From Allacma fusca (taxonomy: Eukaryota > Arthropoda > Collembola > Symphypleona > Sminthuridae), in the NCBI GenBank assembly GCA_947179485.1, contig OX359245.1, positions 53,121,067 to 53,185,066 on the forward strand: a stretch of 64,000 nt of DNA, in the 5' to 3' direction. Each line of letters starts with the position of its first letter. Positions within the stretch are counted from its first letter, which is position 1. A program made the position numbers and the translations under genes. The notes beneath the pieces are model-generated. The model did no database searches. It was not told where the DNA came from and worked only from the letters and a program-made list of their open reading frames with translations. This document shows positions 20,214 through 60,915 of the stretch, piece after piece.

Positions 20214-21045
20214 TATCAATAATAATAATTATTATTATTAATCTTAACGACCAAGTTTGCAAATATTTCCTCCTAAATTTTAGCCCAATTTGTGCCAGAT
20301 AAAATATTTTGAACCACTACAACCACTTCCCATTTGCCACCTTATGGGCAAAACTTGTATTTTAAGCCCTAGCAGACATATAAACAAGGATTTCTCAGCC
20401 AATTTAATAGCAATAGTTATAACCCCACTTGTAATCTTCTTTAATGGGCTCGTATCCCCTCATAAACTGGAATGGTTGGCACATCAGAGTCAACTCCAAG
20501 TGTTGGGGGTGTCTTCCGAACGGTCCTTAATATTATGGACGCTATTACAATAAACACGCCACTCCATAATTATTACAGTCTCCAAACTTTATGACAACAC
20601 CCCTAAAAAAGGCATTTTGCCTCTGACTCTAAAAAATAAAATTTTAAATAAGCCAAATTATTGCACTCGTCAAAATATATTTTACGGGAAACGGGGATAT
20701 GTATCTGGAATTATTGGACGAATTCACGTTTACCCCACTCCTAAATTTTATTATTTTACGATGCTCTATACACTATGCTGCTTGTACATAATAAGAAAAT
20801 AACACTTGTCTCCTCTCTCCAGAGCTTAAATTATTAAGAGTCCGAGGGCACATTCACACTTGGCGTTTACCCCAAAGTTAATAATTCTCCTGTAAAGGGC
20901 AAGCCCGTAATAGCGAAAGCTTCAGCAAAAATCTTTTATACCCGCATTTTTCCTGTACATAATCGCAAGCGGGAAGAGACTTGGACTCATTCCCATTGAC
21001 CATAACATTAATAACTGCGTACTTACAGTAGTAGTAAGAGCATCT
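20214..21045. other. GST upstream region, intergenic
   Basis: AT-rich DNA. The frames at 20290-20553 and 20617-20802 (+) look random. The GST promoter must lie here, but no clear TATA box is visible next to the ATG at 20213. Confidence 0.3.
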
Positions 21046-21888
21046 CGTCGGTGAAGAGGCAAAATGATCTACGTGCATGATCGATTAGAATCAAAATGAT
21101 CTACTTGCAGTTTCACTAAAGGCAAAATGATCTACTTGCATTGAATTTTAAAAGCAAAATGATCTAGATGCAGCTTTTCCTAAAAGCAAAATGATCTAGA
21201 TACAAATTATAATAAACACAATATAAGTAAACACATTCTAATGCCGGTGTACAAATATGCGAGGTATTAAAAATCTTTTATATATACATTTAATTCCCCA
21301 ATGCCTCCATTTCTTTCTTTCAGTAACATTGAAAAAAATGTTGTCAATTATGATTTAGCATTTGAAAATGATTCCGAATGTTATGATAATGGTGATGGTC
21401 GTAAAATACGATTTGAAAAAACTCCAGGTTGAGAATTATTAAAGGGAAAACCCATTCAATGTGCACACTAACACATGAGCTTACTGTGATTTTGATTCGT
21501 CTGTTAATTCGTCGATTTTAAAATAAATGAATGTTGCAGTTTTAGTAACTAAAAATGTATTAGATGCAATAAGTGAAATTAACTTTAGTTGCCGGAATGA
21601 TCCTTAGTAATAGCAAACCCTTCAGACAATATTAACCCACAACCCTAGGTCAATTACAGTCATGGTTAGCCCTTATAAGCCACGTGTCCTCCTTACAGAT
21701 ACTATTTTTCTCACAAAAAAAATTGACCAGCACTTAGATCATTTTGCTTTTAAAGAAAATTGTATGTAGATCAGTTTGCTTTTAAAGAGGCTTGCACCCA
21801 GTTCATTTTGCCTTTAGGGAAAAAGTTATGTAGATCATTTTGATTCTAATCGATTATGCACGTAGATCATTTTGCCTCTTCACCGACG
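21046..21888. mobile_element. foldback-like inverted-repeat element
   Basis: The ends mirror each other: CGTCGGTGAAGAGGCAAAAT at the left and its complement closing with CACCGACG at 21888. Identity continues for about 60 bp. Each arm (left to ~21210, right from ~21730) holds five degenerate copies of a ~33-bp unit built on GCAAAATGATCTA. This structure, tandem units inside long inverted repeats around a unique ~520-bp AT-rich middle, is that of foldback or other non-autonomous DNA elements. ATCT flanks both sides and may be a 4-bp target duplication. No transposase frame is seen. Confidence 0.75.
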
Positions 21889-24800
21889 ATCTGTATATAC
21901 AGTCCAGGTTTATTGTACCAGAAAAAATATTAATCTCCGAAAAATATTTTCTCCACAAGGACAAGAACAAAACCTTCTTCTCAGGAATTATTTTTTCCAT
22001 GAGATAAAGTGTGCTGCTTAATTAGAGCCACCTGTATAGCAAGGATTGACTGTATTATTAATTTATATAACGGCTGTATATATATATACATATATAAGCA
22101 CACACGTATAAATATTACACGTGTTTCCACTCCTCCGACAGTATCAAGGTGAAGGTTTCACAATGCCCCTTGATGGAGCTTTTTCCTCTCAATTCTTAAA
22201 GATGATCGTGGCATATATGTACATACATACATATGTACATACATACTGGGAGGGCATGTACGAACCCAATGCCAAGATACCCTACATCTGTTCCTACTAA
22301 TTTATTTTTAACGAACTCTATCATTACCGTGGAAATGGATTTTGTTTCCCTATTACCAAAGGTGCTTTCCCTCCTGACAGCCCCAGACTCAACAACAATA
22401 GGACCAATTTGGAGGGATTCTATACGCAATCCCACATTTCTAATACCGATCCAATTCCCTCACTTGACATCATTGCATGTTCCCTAATTGAATCCGGAAA
22501 TTAAGGAACTCGAGCAAAACTAAATACAGTTGACCCTATGAGAAGAGTACGATTTGAAATAATCACACACTAAAAATAACATTGTAGTATAAATGAACGA
22601 CAAATGTACTATTGTTGACTCCTTTGCCAGAAAGAGCTTTTATAAGACGATCTCTTATAGTAAGAATGTACTGTCTAGTAATATCCTAATGTCTGAAGGA
22701 AATCACGCTTGAAGCAAAGCGTTTACTCTTATAGTAGTAAATCCATCACAGTTGAGATACCTATAGACACTTACAGTGCTATATAGACTCTTTTGACTAG
22801 AAATAGTATCTCCTCTGGAGGAACGATTTGGAGGAATTCCCATTTAACACAATGTTATTTTCCCCGCTTTACAATGCATAAGAGTAATTCATTTATGACA
22901 GCCATGTTTTTTACTTTTTCAGGGCTGCTCTTATTATCAGAGTGCACTCTATATGGAAGTAGTTGTTTTTGACAGCTGACATCACCTTAGGTTTTAGAAC
23001 TTTTCCCAGAATTCATTTTTCTCGTTTGACGCCAAGTCCCAGGAGCCTCATTTATACTTTCGCAAATTGACAATCTAGAAGTAATTTCTTGACAAACTTG
23101 TTCTCTTCTTTAAAAAATTCATTCATGTTGTGAATTCATGCCTCAATTCTCAGGGCTTTCGTGAAACTTGAATATCTTTATATGTGCAATTCCCTGAGAG
23201 ATTTACTGTCAGCGTTGTTTCAGCCCTATCTCATTGTCAGTTCCTTTTTTGCAGTCTCGCAATAAAATAATTCTTGAACTTATGATAAATTTACGTACGA
23301 ATGAATAAATAATTTCAGGTGTCTACAAAATATCCTCCAAAATTAACGATTTTATTTATAATTGACCTTTCCAGGAGAAACAAGTCAATAAATCTACAAG
23401 CGCTGGAACTAGACAACCAGTGAACCTTCAAAAACTGACTGTTTTGAATTACCATATTTTTACGTTTGCTTATTTCTATTTTTTTAGTATAATAAAAATT
23501 ATTAGTGTACAATCACGCAGTCTTTAAAATCCCCATTATGAGAAATAAAGTCAATAAGATGCAATTATAGGAGTAGAGTCTCGGATGTTTTTTTTGCAAC
23601 TAATGAAACGGCGTGGAACACACACAGCAAATAAGTTTCAGTATTGAAATGAATGCAAGCCGTAATAATAGCCCAAGGACACGGAAGATTTACGCAGGGG
23701 TGTAGTTAGATTTTTGAACCAGCTCATTATTTAGCCCAAGTCTTGACGTAAGTTTAAAAAAAAAGTAAAACCTTATTGAGGCTCATGAAAAATAATCTAA
23801 ATTCAATCCTATATGGGTTTTATAGCAATAAGATCCTTTTCTATATTTGGGCTAAAATTTCTTAAAAGCATTCCCATTAGGGAAGTAACACAAATGATAT
23901 CACCAGCGTAGTAGGTACGTTAAACCCGGGATATAGTGACAGTAAGTGACATAGTGAGTGGGTAAATTTTTCGTTACATGATATCATCGTTGTATTTCGT
24001 CAAATACATCTATACTCTATTACAATAAACTAATAACAAACATTTTCAGGAAATAAAATAATGTCCTAATGCATTAACTATAATGGAAACAAAAATAATT
24101 CCATAAGTTGTTTTCCTCGTTCATGATGAACTTTGAGCCGATCAATCGTCACTGTGGTCTAATTATGAGATGAAATCCCGAAATCCTATTCCTTTTTCAA
24201 ACGTTTTTTAAAAGTAGATGGACGCTAAAGTGGAATGCATTGTTTATTTTTACGCTTGCAAATTATCAGTCCACGTGGATTCAAAATGACAGGCTACTAC
24301 AAAACTTTAAACATATAATGCGCATTCATGATATCACAATCCAAGGAGGGTGGGTGGCTGGACTAAAAAATGATTCCCAATGATGAAGGGGTAGGGGAGT
24401 AGCAAAATGCCCTCAATTGTGATGATGTCATTTGTGTCACTCCCCTTATCCGCAGTGTTATTTGTCCTATTTGAGAGAGCTTCTAGTTTCCGAATTTTGA
24501 TACTTCTGGGATGCTCTTATACAAAGTGGGTATAAATGCTGTATTTGCATAATATATGTATGTATATACATTACCTGAAATAAATTTATATGTATAGTAA
24601 TGTAGTAAAAGGGAAATTAATTTGACTTATAAAGGTTTCCTTGTATAAGAAAAAAATAGTAAAGTGTGCCCTTATTATAATAGTGAGACAAATTCAGGAT
24701 TAAAACATCAGTTTTTTTTCCTTTTAGAAGAGCCTCCTTCTACAGAAGTGTAATGTTGGGACCTGATATATATGGGTGCCCTTATAAATAGCCCGGACTG

Positions 24801-45331: not shown

Positions 45332-46989
45332 TGTACAATTAGTGCTGTAATTTGTTCGTTTTGTTTTGTTTTGTTCTCCTCGGAAATGAACAAAAGTAGA
45401 ACAATTTGAGTTTTGTTTTGTTCACCGAGTTTAGTTTAGTTTTGTTTTTTGAACAATCCGTATTGTTCAAAAAACAATCCATATTGTTTTGTTCTACCGA
45501 AGTAGAAGATGCTAGAAATTTGTGAAATTGATTGTTGTATATTAGTAATAGAGCATATAGAAGTTGATTGGTGTAAATTTGGTCCGAGCACAAAGGACGT
45601 TAAAACCAAAAAACGGGCTTTAACTAATTTTAGGCGGATATGCTCTCTCTTTTTAACTCTTATTTAATACACTCATTAAACCTTTTGTTGATAGTTTCTA
45701 GGAGTGTAAGGCGTAATGTAATTTCATTCATCCACAAGACCTGAAATGACCGCGTATATAGATATAATATATCAACAAACGATTGTAATGGGGTTTACCT
45801 AGTGCTACCGATACGCATCGTTTTGGGTTCGTCCGATGCCTTGATTGAACCTGTACTGTTTTTTTGGACTGCTTAGGCCTCTTTTATTTCTGTGTCTTCT
45901 TGTCAACTCACAGTCAGACTAGTTTCAGCAATTTAGGATCAAATCAAGTTTATAATTTAGCATTCAAGTCTTCCTTCTGCATTTTATTAAAAACAACAAA
46001 ACAAAATCGAATTTCAGCAGTGGAGGTGACATTTGTCCACCTAAGTATTACTCCATTGACCTCAAGTAGGCATTCTAAGTTACACGTTGTTCAATAACTT
46101 TAGTTTGGCCTTATACATCTGTAAATAGTGCAAAGATTTTGTTGACCTTACTTAAGTCCAGCGGTTCACACCATAAATGATAGGTATACATGTAAATAAA
46201 ACCGTGCACTTCAATAGCTCCTAATGGCCATTATGATGATATTTGAGACTCATTATAAAGTGTATGTAAGGTCATGGGTCTACTAATAACCCACAAAGGT
46301 CAAATTAAGGTCATAGGAATTCTTGTGATCAATCGAACAATGAGATAATGAAACTCATTGTAGCCCACTGAGGTCAAATTAAGGTCATGGAAATTCTTGT
46401 AATCCTTTGAGGTCAATTTGAGGTCATGGAACTTGTTGTAACTCACTGAGGTCAATTTGAGGTCATGGAACTTTTTATGACTCACTCAGGTCAATTTGAG
46501 GTCATGGAACTTTTTATGACTCACTCAGGTCAATTTGAGGTCATGTTGCTATTTGTGACTCACTCAGGTCAATTTGAGGTCATGTTGCTATTTGTGACTC
46601 ACTCAGGTCAATTTGAGGTCATGTTGCTATTTGTGACTCACTCAGGTCAATTTGAGGTCATGTTGCTATTTGTGACTCACTCAGGTCAATTTGAGGTCAT
46701 GTTGCTATTTGTGACTCACTCAGGTCAATTTGAGGTCATGTTGTTATTTGTGACTCACTCATGTCAATTTGAGGTCAAGTTACATTTGGGCACTCAAAGT
46801 TTGAAAAGGTTATTACCCGCTGTCGAGGTGGTTTGTTTGTTATAGTTTTGTTTTATCTTATCGCGGTTTTGTTTTGTTCTAGTTTTGTTTTTTCGAAAAC
46901 TGATTTTGTTTGTTTTGTTTTGTTCAAAAAACAAGAACTGAACAAAAGAACAAACAAAACGCGAACAATATTACAGCACTATGTACAAT
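45332..46989. mobile_element. hAT-like element (TTTGTTTTG family) carrying a minisatellite
   Basis: The element is 45340-46981 (1642 bp). It begins TAGTGCTGTAAT and ends ATTACAGCACTA, a perfect 12-bp inverted repeat, with exact 8-bp target duplications TGTACAAT (45332-45339, 46982-46989). Subterminal arrays of GTTTTGTTTTG lie at the left and right, partly in both orientations. The right half contains the 39-bp minisatellite at 46290-46790. The open frame at 46465-46845 is just that repeat translated, not a gene. Confidence 0.93.
46290..46790 (+). repeat. 39-bp minisatellite with an AGGTCA direct repeat in every unit
   Basis: From 46371 the units run at an exact 39-bp period (46371, 46410, 46449 ... 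46761), with a looser one at 46297. The central copies are virtually identical. Each unit contains AGGTCA-ATTTG-AGGTCA (the first two have AATTA as spacer; the last has ATGTCA for the first hexamer). AGGTCA repeated with a 5-bp gap is the DR5 arrangement of nuclear-receptor response elements. About 12 such pairs are present. Confidence 0.95.
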
Positions 46990-48426
46990 TACGTATTTAG
47001 CCACTCGAATAACGTATGTATGTATATATAGTCAATTGAGGCTCTCCAAACCTTGGGTTTGGATTCAGGGAAATTCCTGAGATTGGAATGGAAATCTGTT
47101 ACCTATTGAGGATCTTGAGGGAAAGCCCAGGAAACAAAGGCCCTGACTACTTAAAATGAAAATTCTGTTCAGGAGAAGATTCACAAACTCCGTGTGAATA
47201 AAATCTCTTTCTTATTCCAATCCCAGACTGTGCATTGATTCCTCATTTTCCCATTGGCTCTAGTATATGCTGTGATATGTATGAAGTCTCCTTTCTTCCT
47301 TCAGAGAGAGAGTCTATATCTATATCCTATATGCATTTACATTAGGAATGTTTTCATGCGGATATAATGATGATATTCCAAGTACTTGATTCCGAATGCC
47401 ACACCACTTTTCCCGAATTGGACCTCAGAATGTGAGCTCTTGAAGAAATAATGACAGTCATTTGTATGCATGAAGCTTCTGTTTTTATTCATAAAATGCA
47501 TCAGTACTTTCGTACAAGCTCGTGTTCCTTTTAATAATAGTACGTGCCAAGGTAAAAAAAAAAAGAAGGGAAGTGTTCCAAAGTAGACATTTCCAGAATA
47601 CTAAGGACTCGGCCATTAAAATAAATGGTTTCAAAATCTGGATTTAAATAATTCGCTAGTCATAAATTCATCTACTTTCAAAGTACTTATGATTGTGGGC
47701 ATAACAAGTTGTAGTAGAGGGTGGGTCTGGGGGCATTACGACAAACGCTTGTAATAAGTATAGTAATAAGGTGCGAGGATTGGGATTTACTTAAAATGTA
47801 GATATATCAAAAGTTCGCTTGTATAATTATGTACACAATTATTATATAATAATTATATATCAGGAGACTTTGACTCCAAGCCGCGAATTACTTTGTTGGG
47901 TAAATCTTAAGTAAATATTTATAATAATGAGACGGTACATGGGTTATTAGTGTTACACATTCAATTATGTATATTCTAATTATTTGACTACTTTTATAAT
48001 AATTATTCCAAAAAATTTATTATTCAAAGCAGAGCTGTTCGTTCCTGTCAAGTGTTCATCCGAGTATGAATTCCTCCCCTCAAATTTTAAAAGTAGGAAT
48101 GTAAACAGGATTTCTGTCTGGAGTCAAGGTTTAGTTCATAGATTTATTTTCTCGGGAACTTTTGTAACTGTCAAGTTGGGATTTTAAAGTCAACTTGACC
48201 TTTAATTACTTGGTCAATCAGGTCATTTCTAAAGTTACGAGAATTTAATATCTGGGAAACAATTGAAATTAATGCAACACGGTTGAGTTATAACTCCATC
48301 TGAAACTCTTGAAGTCTAAGTTATAATTACAAGAACTTCAAAAATTACTTGATCTTGATATGAATACTTGACCTGAACTATAAACTTAAATTTATCCTGG
48401 CCAAATTTCAAACTTAGCAATCCCTT
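46990..48426. other. intergenic DNA between element and minisatellite
   Basis: AT-rich. There is one GA/TATA-rich patch around 47300 and a short AT palindrome near 47835-47865. No coding exon is recognised; the frame at 47984-48187 has no support. Confidence 0.3.
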
Positions 48427-48705
48427 GTCCTGAACTTGACCTATACTTGACCTAAACTTGACCTGAACTTGACCTGAAATTTACCAGAACTTTACCAGAA
48501 CTTGAGCTGAACTTGAGCTGAACTTGACCTGAACTTTACCAGAACTTTGCCAGAACTTTACCAGAACTTGACCAGAACTTTACCAGAACTTGACCTGAAC
48601 TTTACCAGAACTTGACCTAAACTTGACCTGAACTTTACCAGAACTTTGCCAGAACTTTACCAGAACTTGACCTAAACTTGACCTAAACGTGACCTGAACT
48701 TACTC
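48427..48705. repeat. 11-bp minisatellite (ACTTGACCTGA / ACTTTACCAGA)
   Basis: More than 20 degenerate 11-bp units in a row. Variants alternate between ACTTGACCTGA and ACTTTACCAGA. Consecutive TGACCT hexamers at 48437, 48448, 48459 and 48470 read as AGGTCA-N5-AGGTCA on the minus strand. The array lies ~290 bp past the stop of the minus-strand gene and beyond its probable poly(A) signal (minus AATAAA at 48937-48932). Confidence 0.95.
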
Positions 48706-48990
48706 CTAGTTCAAAACTAACCAGAACGCCAAAGTTATCACAAACTTCACCAAAATTCCAAACTTCACCCAAACTTCAACTCCTTGCTACAAAATCCACC
48801 TAAAAAACTTGACATGAGGTCAGTCATCCCCAGGGCCTTAATTGACCCAAAAAACAGCTCTGATCTCAAAGTGCCACCAAATGATTCAAATCCAGTATAT
48901 ATTTAAATTTCCCCAAGACAATTCTACTAAATTTATTCCTGAACGCATTAAAATTGCTCCTAGATCCTATAAATCCTGGACGACATTCCT

Positions 48991-60058: not shown

Positions 60059-60579
60059 CTGCATGCACACACTGACACAGAAGGCACAGACAGACACACA
60101 GAAAGGCACGGGCACAGACACAGGCACAAGCACAGTCAGACACATATAAATATACACACAAGTCTCAGAATTAAATTTCCATTCCGCAATCTTCCCAAAG
60201 TGGTTTCTGTCTTCGAGCCCGTACGTTTTCCCGTTTTTCTTGAGACCTGTGGAAACCATAAGTGAATTTAAAAGCAATGACAGGGTTGGAGTGATTCGAT
60301 TGCTCTTTGGTGGAAGGGCTGTATGTTATGACTATATGAATAGACTTACTGGGACCTTTTTCAATGTGAGATCTTTTATTATAAAGTTTGTAATATTTAG
60401 GGGGGTACAAATATTTGGAATGGCACTTCCGTATTTACATAATTAATTTTAGATTTGAGAGGGGAATCATTAACAGGCGGAAGTAATCTTTGGGAGGAAT
60501 TTTGCGCGTTGGAAATTATTATATAGTACTTGAATATTTTGAATAAAATTTCATTATTGTCATTAGGGCAAAATTTGGT

Positions 60580-60915
60580 GAGAATGTTATGGAAATTTGG
60601 TGAGAATTTTTTGCAACTTTCAGGATGATGTTTTGTAGATTTCTATAAAATGTTTTGAAAATTTCGAGAGAATGTGTTGCAAATTTCGAGAGAATGTTTT
60701 GCAAATTTCGAGAGAATGTTTTGCAAATTTCTATAAAATGTTCTGCAAATTTGGAGAGAATTTTCTCCGAGTTTTGGGAGAATGTTTTGCAAATTTGGAC
60801 CCATTGTTTTTCAAATTTCGAGGGAAAGTTTTGCAATTTTTGAAAGAATGTTTTGCAAATTAACCCTAATGTTTTTCAAATTGAGCCAGAATGTTTCGAA
60901 AATTGTACAAATGTT
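60580..60915. repeat. 22-bp minisatellite
   Basis: About 14 degenerate units of AATGTTTTGCAAATTTCGAG(AG). The best-preserved units are at 60665-60750; units decay towards both edges. Translation gives an artificial periodic frame on both strands (for example 60519-60836), which is not a gene. Confidence 0.9.

Follow-up and report, generated by a model that had tools for sequence, protein, structure and literature searches.

The paired AGGTCA half-sites described here are best explained as part of a 39-bp minisatellite inside a non-autonomous hAT transposon copy, the AGGTCA pair being accidental and carried along with the repeat. We put the probability of this reading at roughly 0.8. The array lies in a 64,000-bp stretch of the genome of Allacma fusca, referred to below as the window (C1:53121067-53185066; assembly of 392.7 Mb in 91 contigs). 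Comparison of 34 such arrays gave no detectable sign that the DR5 is maintained as a pair. The array is probably an ordinary transposon-borne minisatellite with an unusual, receptor-like passenger unit.

A DR5-bearing minisatellite in a hAT-like element

Allowing at most one mismatch, the window contains 20 occurrences of AGGTCA-N5-AGGTCA, where 0.38 would be expected and none of 100 shuffles gave more than two. Twelve of these sites lie on the forward strand at 46297..46777. Eleven are perfect DR5s, that is, two AGGTCA hexamers in direct repeat at a spacing of 5; the last, at 46761, starts with ATGTCA and carries one mismatch. The initial annotation had reported an ATTTG spacer in most units; more exactly, the spacer is ATTTG in 10/12 DR5 units and AATTA in the other two. 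That annotation had also described a twelvefold array. The twelve sites in 39-bp units are there, but they do not form an uninterrupted run: a degenerate 35-bp unit without a half-site, in which both hexamers are lost (46336..46370, forward strand), separates the site at 46297 from that at 46371.

An in-register parse resolved 14 units at 46258..46799 on the forward strand, in the type order A-B-C-B-H-I-I-J6-K, where the letters used throughout (A, B, B2, C, G, H, I, J and K) are our own labels for unit types. The period-39 rows returned by TRF have a combined span of 46358-46796. The first unit, at 46258, has kept its second hexamer only, and the degenerate 35-bp unit is of type C, a type also present in other copies of the element. 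A block of type J units at 46527..46760 on the forward strand comprises six units, of which five have the same sequence. A further motif, TGACTCA, the AP-1 consensus, is present in eight copies within the 39-bp array (46478-46757); a repeat unit thus easily takes on a regulatory look. A coding role for the array, which contains a 131-codon open frame, was rejected. Pfam gave sub-cut-off hits only and, since the unit length of 39 is a multiple of 3, an open frame through the array comes cheaply. Rfam returned no match at its gathering score, no tRNA was found, and exact unit strings had no match in viral_contigs or genome_contigs, neither of which is a collection meant for animals.

The array was confirmed to lie inside a DNA transposon. 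The hAT-like copy, recognized from its terminal inverted repeats (TIRs), its target-site duplication (TSD) and matches to its body elsewhere, spans 1642 bp (45340..46981, forward strand). Its left TIR, TAGTGCTGTAAT (45340..45351, forward strand), matches the right TIR (46970..46981, reverse strand) at 12/12 bp, and TGTACAAT is found at both flanks as the TSD (45332..45339 and 46982..46989). The 8-bp TSD and the 12-bp TIR, which is inside the 10-25 bp range given in the part of PMC3942097 cited here, are features of the hAT superfamily. Pfam detected no transposase domain in 10 ORF pieces (of 22 ORFs of at least 35 aa listed). The combination of 12-bp TIRs, an 8-bp TSD and no detected transposase fits a non-autonomous hAT transposon. 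The Ac, Buster and Tip groups of hAT elements are similar in their 8-bp TSDs and short TIRs, the latter being 12 bp in BuT2 (excerpts of PMC3942097 and PMC3517528).

The array sits ~180 bp inside the right end of the element. Repeats of the GTTTTGTTTTGTTC type occur beneath both ends, at 45363..45497 on the left and at 46866..46953 on the right (both listed on the forward strand, with one inverse repeat on the right), and would be candidates for a transposase-binding motif. On either strand, TTTTGTTC occurs 10 times in the window, with 7 of the occurrences in 45340-45500 or 46830-46981, the outer 161 and 152 bp of the element. We considered the array itself as a transposase-binding repeat and did not favour this idea: the motif common to both ends is GTTTTGTTC, not AGGTCA.

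The organization resembles that of Herves from Anopheles gambiae, a hAT element with short TIRs and tandem repeats in one end. According to the sections of PMC3143072 cited here, Herves has three imperfect 100-bp copies starting from 146 bp of its left end, and its short subterminal motifs are bound by the transposase. The two differ in that Herves, with its 3 repeats, has a transposase gene of its own, whereas in the present element none was detected and the arrays comprise 13-30 units of mostly 39 bp.

Copies of the element and their arrays

Related copies were sought with two queries. With the array, 40/380 first-look candidates were scored and gave 109 matches; with the element body, 40/549 were scored and gave 112 matches. 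The main alignments of the body query, among the 40 candidates scored, fell at 40 places. One of these is the window copy itself, and the other 39 have 90-93% identity. Alignments break near element position ~708 (46047..46048), where copies with both flanking pieces have roughly 94-107 bp more than the window copy.

We parsed 34 arrays comprising 707 units: that of the window (L013); 26 of element type and one satellite-like (L040), for which the array served as query; and a further six (L041-L046) picked through the element body alone. Units were recognized as ungapped 39-mers with at most 10 mismatches to nine typed unit types, so that more diverged units were missed. An array was present in 34/34 loci, 28 of which were the query or had been picked by array. 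Its presence in all six body-chosen copies makes it look constitutive for the family. One contig, C5 (55.6 Mb), had no array match among the 109 listed from the 40 scored candidates, yet it supplied a body hit with an array (L041), which may be a matter of ranking only.

In 28/34 loci, the window's own included, the exact 12-bp TIR follows the array on its right side; the stretches taken for the others may not reach that far. Both exact TIRs were in view in six loci (the window's own L013, L015, L016, L017, L018 and L020), and 5/6 of these have identical 8-bp TSD pairs, the exception being L018, which includes 200 N. In L014 and L019, one or both exact TIRs were missing in view. The target consensus of Ac elements is nTnnnnAn. 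The right flanks in our set, which are proven duplications only for loci with both ends in view, conform to nnTRYAnn, with T at position 3 in 24/27 and A at position 6 in 23/27 distinct flanks. These 27 flanks do not follow the Buster target consensus, nnnTAnnn (PMC3517528, in part), and the target preference of Tip was left uninvestigated in the portion of PMC3942097 cited. The nnTRYAnn pattern of the L013-L046 right flanks may mean a distinct target preference.

The arrays of the 33 element-type loci, including the window's own, contain 13-30 units of mostly 39 bp, some of the stretches ending at an edge. A common unit order, A-B-C-G-H-I-(J)n-K, was recognizable, from which single copies lose types or in which they repeat them. 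The expanded type varies by copy: J reaches 20 units in L022 and L032, G 12 in L033 and B2 8 in L039. Type C, which is without a half-site, was amplified too (9 units in L025 and 8 in L026). Private variants recur inside a copy and, in L016, L019 and L020, where the units were printed, they are adjacent. The same is true of broken hexamers, which recur inside copies: AGGTGA seven times in L035, AGGTTA three times in L022 and TGGTCA three times in L029, while in L040 AAGTCA replaces the first hexamer in 12/13 J units. Overall, the array is found in many copies, differs among them in number of units and is homogenized within them, as is characteristic of a transposon-borne minisatellite.

Locus L040 differs from the rest. 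Its 3501 bp (L040:1-3501; C55:46200-49700) hold a satellite-like 3-kb array in which 78 units were recognized. The scaffold is 324 kb long and has more matches at 158900-161938 and 296102-297165. Such a locus would be expected if the transposon-borne array had a satellite-type role, seeding longer satellite arrays. We consider such a role very unlikely: among the matches listed there is one scaffold of this kind, and no exact TIR occurs within the 3.5 kb of L040.

Divergence of hexamers, spacer and linker

Taken by itself, the window array gives an impression of hexamer conservation, with 0/18 adjacent differences falling in the hexamers across ten contiguous inner units (p = 0.0013). This was discounted as evidence, as the value rises to P = 0.05 when any register is admitted and hexamers are broken in other copies. 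Moreover, the six adjacent J units, five of which are identical, look recent and can explain the conserved appearance. In the comparison among copies, the arrays at certain loci are almost the same (L017/L018; L030/L031; L041-L043 with L046), so that each mutation entered the count a single time for a given type, column and base.

The main test was confined to the types with both AGGTCA in their consensus (J, H, G, B, B2 and K) and to units with at most 6 mismatches from their type. Unique mutations numbered 55 in the 12 hexamer columns, 18 in the 5 spacer columns and 130 in the 22 linker columns. With all loci included, hexamers did not differ significantly from the linker (p = 0.12) or from all other columns (p = 0.29). 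When the nine types were taken together, the hexamer share was 73/271 against 83 expected (one-sided p = 0.096). In strict register, in which the next unit begins at exactly 39 bp (554/707 units; types J, H, G, B and B2), the counts were 40 hexamer, 15 spacer and 88 linker mutations (p = 0.36). When changes were counted on a tree of 267 distinct units, the DR5 columns came 12th of 39 registers (P = 0.12). The first hexamer was indistinguishable from the linker in every version of the test (p = 0.44 to 1). The initial annotation had asked whether the DR5 core is more conserved than the rest of the unit and had named equal divergence of hexamers and linker as the sequence half of what would speak against its proposal. 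Across the 34 arrays, greater conservation was not clearly seen, and equal divergence is largely what the values of 0.12 and 0.36 describe.

Exclusion of the satellite-like L040, which was decided only after the data had been seen, shifted these results. Without it, there were 40 hexamer and 111 linker mutations (p = 0.026), the value being p = 0.09 when hexamers were set against the rest of the unit, and in strict register the difference between hexamer and linker had p = 0.17. In the tree-based analysis, only three of the 39 registers were then lower than the DR5 columns (P = 0.036 against random columns; P = 0.049 with type C also removed), and in J units alone they ranked 17th of 39 (P = 0.37).

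These values bear on the proposal that the array is a receptor platform under selection, in which EcR/USP or an orphan receptor binds the DR5s and thereby drives the family or helps the host. The depletion of hexamer changes without L040 (p = 0.026; tree-based P = 0.036) is in its favour, as is the presence of perfect DR5s in 34/34 loci. Against it, the first hexamer behaved like linker in every test made, unit types free of half-sites were amplified, and broken hexamers recur inside arrays. The pairing of the half-sites is likewise at odds with it. Among 551 units (without L040 and types A and C), both hexamers were perfect in 436 and both broken in 19. The first alone was broken in 76 and the second alone in 20, which indicates that the two hexamers are not retained together. 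We consider selection for a paired site quite unlikely.

A narrower signal was seen in the spacer and second hexamer. Without L040, 26/164 unique mutations fell there (raw p = 0.00025), and in strict register 19/109 (p = 0.011); with L040 the corresponding values were p = 0.029 and p = 0.19. In the tree-based count over the 39 six-column windows, the second hexamer varied least when L040 was left out, ranked 7th with it, and ranked 6th in J units alone without it. The spacer alone was depleted in type J (1/61, p = 0.004 versus linker). This pattern would be expected if the functional unit were a single extended half-site, an A/T-rich flank plus AGGTCA (columns 7-17; AATTTGAGGTCA), to which a receptor monomer, the transposase or a protein of the host binds. 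A comparable depletion, short of significance (p = 0.097), is seen in types A, C and I, although type C is without AGGTCA, which suggests that the trend is in part an effect of alignment or ascertainment. In addition, the better candidate for a transposase motif is the GTTTTGTTC cluster at the element ends. Together with the fall in rank and significance when L040 is included, these observations make a functional extended half-site unlikely, and maintenance of a single half-site is a weak possibility.

Other repeats in the window

A second DR5-bearing array, absent from the initial annotation, is present on the reverse strand at 48424-48701, ~1.4 kb beyond the element. It has an 11-bp period with the unit AGGTCAAGTTC and variants, and comprises 6 perfect DR5s and 2 with one mismatch. 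The sequence CTGGTAAAGTT was found in 7/26 units counted, and the AAGTT columns were less variable than most hexamer columns; AGGTCA is not the most conserved part of this array. An older element of hAT-like type, at 48030-48862, may enclose this array; it would have 10-bp ends CAGAGCTGTT and flanks ATTCAAAG and ATCTCAAAG, but inverted pairs of 10 bp are expected by chance at such a scale.

At 21045-21889, 60-nt inverted ends that are 98% complementary mark a probable other DNA transposon. It has inner tandem AGATCATTTTGC repeats, inverted, at both ends, and perhaps a 4-bp target duplication, ATCT. A 22-bp tandem repeat of ~13 copies is located at 60571-60861. Elsewhere in the window are genes for DGCR6, an RRM protein, LRR and a carboxylesterase, a set consistent with an animal genome.

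Supply of DR5 sites by the element family

In the 32 other element copies, we counted 425 perfect DR5s, 7-25 in each (mean 13.3), against ~31 expected in the whole 392.7 Mb from base composition. Every one of the 34 loci holds perfect DR5s. No perfect DR5 was found in eleven arbitrary 10-kb stretches (L002-L012); one more such stretch, L001, consists of N over three quarters of its length. If the unscored candidates resemble the copies that were read, perfect DR5s would number in the thousands. The suggestion of the initial annotation that a mobile element could spread a dense platform of such sites thus stands as far as the multiplication of the array is concerned. There is no support for the DR5 as the part that is kept, given the statistically similar divergence of hexamers and linker, a first hexamer that resembles linker and the amplification of units without half-sites.

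RAR is not known from arthropods. DR5 is bound by RXR-RAR (PMC11376212, in the part consulted). More pertinent to a platform in this animal, reporters with DR5 sites respond in yeast to EcR-USP of Drosophila (PMC5494300), and direct repeats of varied spacing are bound by EcR/USP (PMC4777130), as stated in the passages of these papers drawn on here. By analogy, the arrays have real potential as receptor sites. They may be bound by receptors where chromatin is open, but the evolution of their sequence gives no firm sign of their being maintained through such binding. A further reading, in which a high-copy hAT element turned a half-site pair into a minisatellite and the clustered DR5s act as a receptor sink or relay, with no single array under selection for it, has in our estimation a small chance of being correct.

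Discussion

The reading that we prefer is a non-autonomous hAT element with an internal minisatellite. Transposase supplied in trans would have moved the element and so multiplied the array. Slippage or unequal exchange would have lengthened, shortened and homogenized the array inside each copy. The AGGTCA pair would be an accident of the founder unit, carried as a passenger.

A transposon-borne minisatellite is a known kind of structure; the receptor-like unit is unusual. Xstir, miDNA4, the lepidopteran (GTCY)n elements and Tetris TIR-220 are likewise non-autonomous and carry an expanding, homogenizing array that sometimes gives rise to satellite DNA (PMC9659126). They differ from the present family in that, among the elements described in the part of that review cited, none has a hAT-borne array or a receptor-type unit. 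Alu elements are comparable in another respect, as a high-copy mobile element that supplies a large share of perfect direct-repeat receptor sites. Alu sites are of the DR2 type and several recruit RARs by ChIP (PMC1785376, in part), whereas those described here are candidate sites of the DR5 type, ~13 per copy through tandem amplification. Literature searches, judged by titles and the beginnings of abstracts, brought up no report of a minisatellite of DR5 units carried by a hAT element. In a full-text string search with the unit and the TIR, only the TIR 12-mers matched, in papers that, from title and abstract start, concern other subjects.

If the arrays are not bound, they are a caution: a conserved-looking receptor array within a single minisatellite is to be expected from recent homogenization alone, and most of the seeming conservation disappears once copies are compared. 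If they are bound, the family would supply most of the perfect DR5s in the genome, according to the composition-based estimate, in clusters of 7-25 per copy read, and would offer a natural setting in which to ask whether a hormone receptor is titrated by decoy sites in clusters.
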